From Alphaproteobacteria bacterium (GTDB taxonomy: Bacteria; Pseudomonadota; Alphaproteobacteria; RF32; CAG-239): DNA of 39,146 nt. The notes under the pieces were generated by a model. That model did no database searches. It was not told where the DNA came from and was given only the letters and a program-made list of their open reading frames with translations. Both the position numbers and the translations under genes were made by a program. This document shows, one piece after another, positions 11,073 to 18,549 of the stretch. Numbering within the stretch: the first letter of the stretch is position 1; every line of letters begins with the position of its first letter. The DNA is taken from NCBI GenBank assembly GCA_017543835.1, contig JAFYFJ010000087.1:1-39146 (forward strand), given 5' to 3'.

Positions 11073-11101
11073 ATCAATGCGTCATCTTTTGACGCATTGA
11101 T
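11073..11101. promoter_or_regulatory. 12-bp perfect inverted repeat upstream of dnaQ
   Basis: Arms atcaatgcgtca (11073-11084) and tgacgcattgat (11090-11101) are separated by 5 bases. There is no T-run after the right arm, so it is a poor intrinsic terminator. The right arm contains a TTGACG (11089-11094) that could be a -35 box for dnaQ (TATGTT at 11110, spacer 15). It may be an operator or a terminator without the usual U-tract. Confidence 0.6.
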
Positions 11102-11145
11102 ATGTCATATATGTTCTATCAACAAAATTCAAAAGGATGAAAAAT

Positions 11146-11760
11146 ATGAAACAAATACGAGAAATAGTTATAGATACCGAAACAACCGGCGTAAATGCTT
11201 ACAAAGGCGACAGACTGGTCGAAATCGGCGCGGTCGAGCTCATTAACGGCAAACCGAGCGGCCGTGTTTTTCATCAATACATCAACCCGCACCGTTCGAT
11301 TCCGAAAGATATTCGCGCCATACACGGCTTAGATACAAACTTTTTGCGTCGTTATCCGTGTTTTAAGAATATCGCACCGCAATTTTTGGATTTTATCGGC
11401 AACGATAGCATCCTCGTGGCCCATAATGCGTCGTTTGACCTCGACTTTTTGAACTGCGAACTCAGACGCGCGGGCTATCGGGGCCTGTATAATCATCGAA
11501 TTGTCGATACACTCAAACTTGCGCGACAGGCATTTCCGAATCAGCGAAACACGCTCGACTGCCTGTGCAACCGCTTTAATGTCGATAATTCGATGCGTTC
11601 GCTGCACGGTGCATTGCTTGACGCGCGGTTGCTGGCCGAGGTTTATCAACATCTGCGGCCGCGCAAATTCGCAAAATTACGCAAGTTATGGACAACGCTG
11701 AAGCAAGCGGTTTTCGCCCCGTTTGACCGTAATCGGCAGATTCAGCGGATTATCTATTGA
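11146..11760 (+). CDS. dnaQ: DNA polymerase III epsilon subunit (3'-5' proofreading exonuclease)
   Basis: The DEDDh exonuclease fold is complete. ExoI has Asp10 and Glu12 in IVIDTETTG, ExoII has Asp98 in HNASFDLDF, and ExoIII has His154 and Asp159 in HGALLDA. It removes mispaired bases as part of the replicative core. I chose the ATG at 11146 over the one at 11137 because aaagga sits immediately before 11137 and at proper distance from 11146. Also, epsilon proteins start right at the first strand. With 204 residues it is shorter than E. coli DnaQ (243). The C-terminal tail is basic and I see no clear beta-clamp motif. Confidence 0.92.
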   Translation: MKQIREIVIDTETTGVNAYKGDRLVEIGAVELINGKPSGRVFHQYINPHRSIPKDIRAIHGLDTNFLRRYPCFKNIAPQFLDFIGNDSILVAHNASFDLDFLNCELRRAGYRGLYNHRIVDTLKLARQAFPNQRNTLDCLCNRFNVDNSMRSLHGALLDARLLAEVYQHLRPRKFAKLRKLWTTLKQAVFAPFDRNRQIQRIIY

Positions 11761-16037: not shown

Positions 16038-16115
16038 GGCGGATGTAGCTCAGTTGGTTAGAGCGCTGGTTTGTGGTACCAGATGTCGTCAGTTCAAATC
16101 CGATCATCCGCCCCA
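16038..16115 (+). tRNA. tRNA-His (GTG)
   Basis: The cloverleaf folds with the anticodon GTG at 16073-16075 in the loop ttgtggt and the stem ctggt/accag. The extra G at position -1 (16038) faces a C discriminator (16112), the identity mark of histidine tRNA. CCA is encoded (16113-16115). The T stem contains an A-C mismatch (16091 against 16101, positions 52-62) and a G-U pair at 49-65, which is unusual for a housekeeping tRNA. Confidence 0.97.
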
Positions 16116-17236: not shown

Positions 17237-17274
17237 TAAAAACAATCTTTCCTCCTGCGTCATGATTTGTCGCA

Positions 17275-17321
17275 TCTCCGTGTTTTAGTATTTTTGAATG
17301 CAAGAAATTAAAACACGGAGA
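17275..17321 (+). promoter_or_regulatory. 12-bp inverted repeat covering the ribosome binding site of the 17328 operon
   Basis: tctccgtgtttt (17275-17286) and aaaacacggaga (17310-17321) are perfect reverse complements with 23 bases between. The right arm contains the ggag (17317-17320) that serves the ATG at 17328. Folded in mRNA it would hide the ribosome site; as DNA it could be an operator. Confidence 0.7.
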
Positions 17322-17327
17322 AATTTT

Positions 17328-17600
17328 ATGGATGAAAAAGAAACGCTAAAAACGCAAGCATCGTTGCTGAAGGCAATTCATAATGATTTTGCGCCGATTG
17401 TGCAAAAAATCAGAGATAAAATGTCGGCGTTATGTGTTGACGAGGCGGATAGAGAGATTCTCAAGCGTCTTGATGAACAACTGGCAAGCGCCGAAACCCT
17501 GCTCGAGCATATAGATTCCGCGGCCGAAACCGACAAGGATTTGCTCGATAAAAATATGGTAAAAGTTAAAGAAATCAGCATAGAGGAGTTGGAAGCATGA
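17328..17600 (+). CDS. Small helical protein, first gene of a three-gene unit
   Basis: The ATG at 17328 follows ggag by 7 bases and gives 90 residues; an in-frame ATG at 17298 lies in the hairpin loop and lacks a ribosome site. The product is acidic and almost all helix, with a heptad-like pattern over about 20-60, so a coiled coil is likely. No family is recognised. The stop overlaps the next start (ATGA). The three genes 17328-18549 are therefore one translationally coupled unit. Confidence 0.75.
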   Translation: MDEKETLKTQASLLKAIHNDFAPIVQKIRDKMSALCVDEADREILKRLDEQLASAETLLEHIDSAAETDKDLLDKNMVKVKEISIEELEA

Positions 17601-17848
17601 TAGAATATATCAGGGATATGATAAAGTTTAGCCGACCGATTGATAAGTTTCCGCACACTTTAGAAGGTATGATAGCGATTATTCACGACCAAGGGTGCAT
17701 ACGCTGTCCGGCATGGGGTGTAGATAAAACGATTGTCAAGGTCGATAAAGATTACGTTTACACCGAATCCGATATCGCCGGAAAAATCGATGTGTTCAAC
17801 GCCTGCGGCGACAAGGTTACAACAATTAACAACGAGGAATTAAAATGA
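17597..17848 (+). CDS. Small protein of unknown function, middle gene of the unit
   Basis: The 83-residue protein has an N-terminal helix and then a likely small beta fold with cysteines in GCIRCPAWG (about 33-41) and a further Cys near 70. It overlaps both neighbours by ATGA. No family is recognised. The beta part (KTIVKVDKDYVYTESD) resembles small SH3-like barrels in pattern only. Confidence 0.7.
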   Translation: MIEYIRDMIKFSRPIDKFPHTLEGMIAIIHDQGCIRCPAWGVDKTIVKVDKDYVYTESDIAGKIDVFNACGDKVTTINNEELK

Positions 17849-18549
17849 TAAAAACGGGCTTTTCTTTTATTGATACGGATTTAGGCGGTCTTCACGCCGG
17901 CGATTTAGCAACGGTACAGGGAGAGTGCATACAAGCCGAGCAATTTGTCCTTAGCTTAACGCAAAGCATTACGGAGCATAACGACGGCTTTGTATTGCTG
18001 ATGAACACGCTTGATTTTCCATCGTTTACTTCCACTGTTTTCGACGAGAATCCTGCCGATTATGATTATGCGCTGATTAGCGACAGAATCTCGAAAAACA
18101 AACTTTTAACGCGGCGCGGACTACCTATACAAGACGACCCGACACAAGATGTTGATTTGTTGCTGAGAAGCTATTCCGCTTGGCTAAATCTGAAAAAGTT
18201 TCAACACTTAAAGGATAAAAAACTGTTGGCGATTATTACGCCGATATTCAAATTGAGATTCGGTCTTGATGAAGATAAAGCGACTTTGTTACTCAAAGAC
18301 GCGGCGCAAATTCTTGAGGTGCCGGTGATATGCTGGCAACGAGATTCTTCGGAAGATTTAGTTGCGGCGGATATGACTTTCAAACTGACGGCCGAAAATG
18401 GCTACAAAGAACCGGTGGATATTGAGGTTATAAAGCAACCGAGGAATAAAACTTTCCGCATCCGCGCCAACGAGTCATCTTTTAAATATACCGAGCGCTT
18501 AAAAGACTGCCCGAAACTTTGGTTTTATGAGAAGAAAGACAATGGCTGA
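17845..18549 (+). CDS. DnaB/RecA-fold protein with lost Walker motifs (putative pseudo-ATPase)
   Basis: The 234-residue protein begins TGFSFIDTDLGGLHAGDL, which matches the T-G-F-x-x-L-D-x-x-x-G-G-L-x-x-G-D-L entry to the DnaB-helicase/KaiC-type ATPase core. At the Walker A position, however, the sequence is VQGECIQAEQF with no G-K-T. The Walker B strand LLAIITPIF has Thr in place of Asp. Further on, LLLKDAAQILEVPVICWQR, AADMTFKL and EVIKQPRNKTFRIRAN follow the order of later DnaB elements (K-x-L-A-x-E-L-x-V-P-V-I, A-D-V, A-K-x-R-x-G). The fold assignment is inference from motif order; loss of catalysis is read directly. It is the last gene of the coupled unit. Confidence 0.7.
   Translation: MIKTGFSFIDTDLGGLHAGDLATVQGECIQAEQFVLSLTQSITEHNDGFVLLMNTLDFPSFTSTVFDENPADYDYALISDRISKNKLLTRRGLPIQDDPTQDVDLLLRSYSAWLNLKKFQHLKDKKLLAIITPIFKLRFGLDEDKATLLLKDAAQILEVPVICWQRDSSEDLVAADMTFKLTAENGYKEPVDIEVIKQPRNKTFRIRANESSFKYTERLKDCPKLWFYEKKDNG

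Follow-up and report, generated by a model that had tools for sequence, protein, structure and literature searches.

P0001, a 234-aa protein encoded at 17845..18549 (+ strand), appears to be a pseudo-DnaB C-terminal (RecA-like) domain that lacks both the Walker A and the Walker B motif. The gene lies in a 39,146-nucleotide stretch of DNA, hereafter the window (positions 1 to 39,146 of the forward strand of contig JAFYFJ010000087.1, assembly GCA_017543835.1), from an Alphaproteobacteria bacterium (RF32; CAG-239). We propose with moderate confidence that P0001 serves a mobile, defence-like cassette as a noncatalytic, DnaB-shaped module for protein binding. Protein binding rather than DNA unwinding is suggested because the ATP-binding parts have been lost, selection on the gene has been kept, and its neighbours include gutted copies of core-machinery proteins.

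P0001 keeps the motif order of DnaB and has lost both Walker motifs

The open reading frame runs from an ATG at 17845 to a stop at 18549, in agreement with the coordinates of an earlier sequence-only reading of the window, and has a good ribosome-binding site upstream, within the preceding gene. That reading had described a DnaB-type order of motifs with a lost P-loop and with Thr in place of the Walker B Asp. Alignment of P0001 to intact short DnaB paralogues and to the DnaB of its own genome confirmed this description. Beyond that reading, the analysis brought to light the operon, the tRNA-linked island, the mobile-element setting, and a second degenerate enzyme, DnaQ. The order TGxxxxD-L-GGLxxGDL, P-loop, Walker B strand, LKxxAxxLxVPVIxxxQ, and ADxxFxL is kept. 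In the joint alignment, the Walker A segment GARP-AMGKTSF of DnaB becomes GE--CIQAEQF in P0001, and its Lys and Thr are gone. The degenerate P-loop (GECIQAEQ, residues 26-33, 17920..17943, + strand, placed opposite GARPAMGKT of DnaB by alignment and hhalign) is two residues shorter than that of DnaB, with no Lys nearby. At Walker B, VVDYLQL of DnaB becomes IITPIFKL, which contains no acidic residue. This degenerate strand, in which Asp has been replaced by Thr, covers residues ~124-137 around LLAIITPIFKL (18214..18255, + strand), and a strand is predicted at residues 126-133.

Losses were also found outside the Walker motifs. P0001 begins at the TGF motif, and the N-terminal domain and linker helix of DnaB are missing. 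In DnaB, DNA-binding loop 2 lies between the conserved Gln that follows the fourth core strand and the strand after it; this stretch, ~33 residues long in DnaB, is reduced to 11 in P0001. Together, the loss of both Walker motifs, the loop-2 stretch, the N-terminal domain, and the linker helix makes ATP use by P0001 very unlikely. The suggestion that P0001 binds single-stranded DNA was not supported; since the second DNA-binding loop of DnaB is deleted, the sequence makes DNA binding in the DnaB manner unlikely.

P0001 is predicted to retain a RecA-like fold

Searches with P0001 of Pfam, including PF03796 for the DnaB C-terminal domain, and of NCBIfam, PHROGs, PADLOC, and PDB sequences returned no meaningful match. 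An AlphaFold2 model was built from an alignment of P0001 relatives only, with no intact DnaB included. The strands and helices of this model follow one another as in a RecA domain (pTM, 0.74), at a moderate pLDDT of 67, with three of the five models below 42. The top Foldseek matches of the model in the PDB were DnaB helicases (E, 1.9e-7), and VIA-align against 4esv gave a Z score of 14.2 over 188 residues at 3.5 Å; identity to solved DnaB is about 17%. Because RadA, RAD51, and KaiC structures scored just slightly below DnaB, assignment of P0001 to DnaB leans also on the order of its motifs and on the cassette. The RecA-like fold itself is a firm prediction of the model. A retained DnaB/RecA fold with lost catalysis, as first read from the sequence, is thus borne out: the model is RecA-like rather than unrelated in fold, and its best solved matches are DnaB.

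Profile comparisons gave a similar picture. The P0001 profile scored 46.3 against DnaB-like sequences, compared to a maximum of 24.0 among 150 column-shuffled controls and 11.9 for a reversed control, which places the similarity beyond chance. After removal of distant degenerate relatives from both sides, the score was 31.6 and still exceeded all 150 shuffles. Residues 2-43 of P0001 paired with the P-loop region of DnaB-like proteins at a probability of 85 for a mixed short-DnaB set, 29 for a set with canonical DnaB, and 2 for RadA.

The replacement motif is conserved under purifying selection

Relatives of P0001 were found in 9 of the 152 genomes of its own gut Alphaproteobacteria family, in two genera; these are metagenome-assembled genomes, fragmented, from rumen, horse faeces, and similar sources. 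An order-wide search, which enlarged the searched set by only one genome, found no relatives outside the family, and none were found in viral contigs, phages, or plasmids. In one genome (G025), two contigs overlap by exactly 141 bases within the P0001-like gene and were treated as one locus.

Every relative that covers the P-loop has xEQ[FI] in place of GKT, and the Gly, Glu, and Gln of the loop are conserved. Since the loss of the catalytic motif is identical in all covering relatives, which come from independent assemblies, it is not a sequencing error. The reading frame is open in all relatives, and pairwise dN/dS ranges from 0.08 to 0.27, with several dS values near saturation and pairs with dS below 1 giving 0.13 to 0.27. 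These ratios, together with the replacement motif in every covering relative, indicate a functional gene rather than a dying one. The structural or regulatory role that had been suggested for P0001 is supported here, as its Walker residues were lost under purifying selection. The genome of the window also encodes a canonical DnaB and RadA; P0001 is therefore not the replicative helicase.

P0001 is the last gene of a compact operon

Two short genes precede P0001. P0003 (S; 17298..17600, + strand; probable start ATG at ~17330) encodes a small, probably helical protein and overlaps, through an ATGA at 17597, P0002 (M; 17597..17848, + strand), whose 83-aa product is predicted to be all beta. The stop of P0002 in turn overlaps the start of P0001 in an ATGA at 17845. 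On the evidence of these overlaps, S, M, and P0001 form one tightly packed operon with P0001 last. In another locus (L015), the S region and a DnaB-like domain form a fusion. The predicted fold of the M protein had no significant match in the PDB (best E, 0.17), and no PADLOC model matched P0001, S, or M. An inverted repeat, whose 20-nt arms are 85% complementary and stand 7 nt apart, lies at 17275-17321, just 5′ of the probable P0003 start.

Upstream of the operon, P0004 (16283..17236, + strand) encodes a predicted PD-(D/E)XK nuclease (PDDEXK_4; E, 3e-9) with a D...EDK motif, for which the PADLOC call was weak. P0004 is 57% identical over its full length to the PDDEXK_4 copy on an element with an integrase (L103; see below). 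A tRNA-His gene (16039..16115, + strand) lies upstream of P0004.

A palindromic box, CGTCATGATTTGTCG (17258..17272, + strand), is found upstream of the operon and is common to other cassette loci. Sites with the consensus CGTCA-N5-TG[AGT]CG also occur at 11080-11094 of the window and in L014, L017, L021, L096, and L098-L106, roughly 20 to 90 bases 5′ of most S, M, PDDEXK_4, and short-DnaB genes (~280 bases in one case). The box at 11080-11094 precedes a 207-aa DnaQ gene, and exact copies also stand 5′ of clpP, dnaQ, and other genes. A cassette-specific box was rejected on the basis of the copies before clpP and dnaQ, and because of this lack of specificity we do not name a regulator for it. 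The 207-aa DnaQ/epsilon-like protein of the window (11137-11760, + strand) has its D and H residues intact and lacks the C-terminal extension found in most other host DnaQ copies.

The cassette adjoins tRNA genes and resembles the cargo of integrative elements

Across loci, S (often fused to M) usually comes first, then P0001, a DnaQ-like gene, and often an ankyrin gene. The cassette adjoins tRNA-His in the window and in G025 and tRNA-Trp in G001. Homology between the window and its nearest relative, G021, ends ~30 bases beyond tRNA-His and picks up again at glgP (18663); a different gene, of 476 aa, lies between tRNA-His and glgP, and a contig break falls inside the tRNA. At the tRNA-Trp site of G012 and G029, we found an element that encodes a tyrosine integrase and a Prim-Pol/DUF3987 protein. 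The protein families were called for L103, and L102 was judged by sequence to have the same genes. L102 and L103 carry PDDEXK_4 (as two separate frames in L102), M, S, and, in the place equivalent to that of P0001, an intact short DnaB.

P0001 itself was on none of the complete elements seen; the integrase elements carry the intact short DnaB instead. The window copy does not lie within a complete mobile element, and no direct repeats marking an integration site were found in the window. We read these gene arrangements as those of a cassette probably carried by integrative elements, the window copy of which is now without an integrase. WYL regulators and GmrSD genes lie near several P0001 copies. 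Elsewhere, WYL regulators control genes for DNA damage and phage defence (PMC10693628). Their presence near several copies fits a defence reading of the cassette without proving it.

Cassette partners include other degenerate core-machinery proteins

A DnaQ-like (epsilon) gene follows P0001 in seven genomes; none lies beside the window copy. The encoded proteins match Escherichia coli epsilon (1j53; E, 6e-28). All seven have Asn or Ser in place of the His of the HGALLDA motif (DEDDh), and five of the seven have Thr or Asn in place of the first catalytic Asp; host DnaQ copies retain both Asp and His. The dN/dS of the cassette DnaQ-like genes is 0.06 to 0.16.

In G019 (L019:1-1339), ankyrin repeats, an RpoD-like sigma-70 region 4, and a P0001-like domain share one frame, which is cut by the contig end. 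The sigma-70 region 4 shares 81% identity with the RpoD-like protein of the same genome. In G025, the ankyrin/sigma-70 region 4 parts and the P0001-like domain are encoded by adjacent genes, of which the P0001-like gene comes second. P-loop losses were also observed in other DnaB-like paralogues: P0005, with S fused in front, has Met in place of the P-loop Lys, and a protein of L060 joins a DnaB-like N-terminal domain with P-loop loss to an AAA+ domain (IetA-like by PADLOC). At L108:8852-10576 (G025), the encoded protein combines a DnaB-like N-terminal domain that has no P-loop with an IetA-like AAA+ domain.

Possible roles of P0001

In the mechanism that we propose, P0001 would be made from the overlapping S, M, and P0001 operon within a mobile, tRNA-linked, defence-like cassette, as a DnaB-type C-terminal domain with a RecA-like fold that probably no longer binds or hydrolyses ATP. 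We infer that it may present a DnaB-like surface to protein partners. P0001 could keep S and M together with a DnaB-type partner as a regulated complex, or a protein that normally recognises replicative helicases could bind to it. Either arrangement would give control over the nuclease or other effectors of the cassette.

One alternative is that P0001 is a regulatory subunit that assembles into a ring or filament alongside an active DnaB-type ATPase, either the short or the host DnaB, and modulates it like the RAD51 paralogues do. P0001 and DnaB belong to the same fold family; the genes for P0001, the DnaQ-like protein, and an intact short DnaB stand in a row in G025, and G186 and G064 each have P0001 and an intact short DnaB on a single contig. 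We nevertheless consider this role unlikely: the genome of the window and G001, G003, and G007 (~90 to 96% complete) encode only canonical DnaB and RadA and no short DnaB, and half of the family does not conserve the Lys of the trans-acting finger region.

P0001 could also be a decoy or sensor that imitates host DnaB, so that phage proteins seizing DnaB are soaked up or the neighbouring nuclease is triggered. Three proteins of the cassette each copy one domain of the core machinery (the gutted DnaB C-domain, the gutted DnaQ exonuclease domain, and RpoD region 4), WYL and GmrSD genes occur at some loci, and decoy sensing has a precedent in PARIS and Panoptes (PMC12409349). However, an identity of ~17% to solved DnaB is far diverged for a mimic, and there is no known phage partner for these bacteria and no demonstrated toxic effector. 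The decoy reading is attractive but unproven, and we rate it as doubtful. Similarly, a broader family of mobile conflict cassettes, in which dead or single-domain host copies (DnaB C-domain, DnaQ exonuclease domain, RpoD region 4) bait phage takeover proteins, is an idea to which we give little weight.

The conserved Gly, Glu, and Gln of the loop might be taken as signs of an active ATPase with an unusual P-loop, but this is highly improbable given a shortened loop with no Lys near it and a Walker B strand with no acidic residue. A decaying pseudogene or an assembly error posing as a gene would fit the loss of all catalytic motifs but is already contradicted by the open frames, the dN/dS values, and the invariant xEQ, and is hardly credible.

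We therefore return to the noncatalytic protein-binding module as our preferred reading. The pairing of P0001 with a degenerate proofreading subunit of DNA polymerase III suggests that core-machinery domains can be reused together as noncatalytic parts of mobile cassettes, and a decoy or regulatory use of replisome mimics thereby becomes directly testable.

Comparison with known systems

We found no family model for a conserved pseudo-ATPase of DnaB fold in bacteria and, in the part of the literature that was searched, no paper on one. P0001 resembles the DnaB C-terminal domain (PF03796) in its RecA-like fold, motif order, and best structure matches, and differs from it in lacking the Walker A Lys/Thr, the Walker B Asp, the N-terminal domain, and the linker helix and in its short loop-2 stretch. 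The short DnaB_C-only proteins of the same family (~322 to 364 aa) are, like P0001, single DnaB_C domains that occupy the same slot in the S/M/PDDEXK_4 cassette. Unlike P0001, they have an N-terminal helical stretch, and those listed retain PAMGKT, with one damaged exception.

The RAD51 paralogues, such as those of the BCDX2 complex, are RecA-fold partners of another RecA-fold protein, although they are not bacterial. RAD51C, RAD51D, and XRCC2 retain the Walker A Lys/Thr and bind nucleotide (PMC7614784), whereas P0001 has not kept these residues. PARIS, Panoptes, and Ronin are sensor-type anti-phage systems that follow a decoy or lost-component logic (PMC12409349). The P0001 cassette, which showed no sequence relation to them, would share that logic and has a defence-like neighbourhood, with defence as a putative function.
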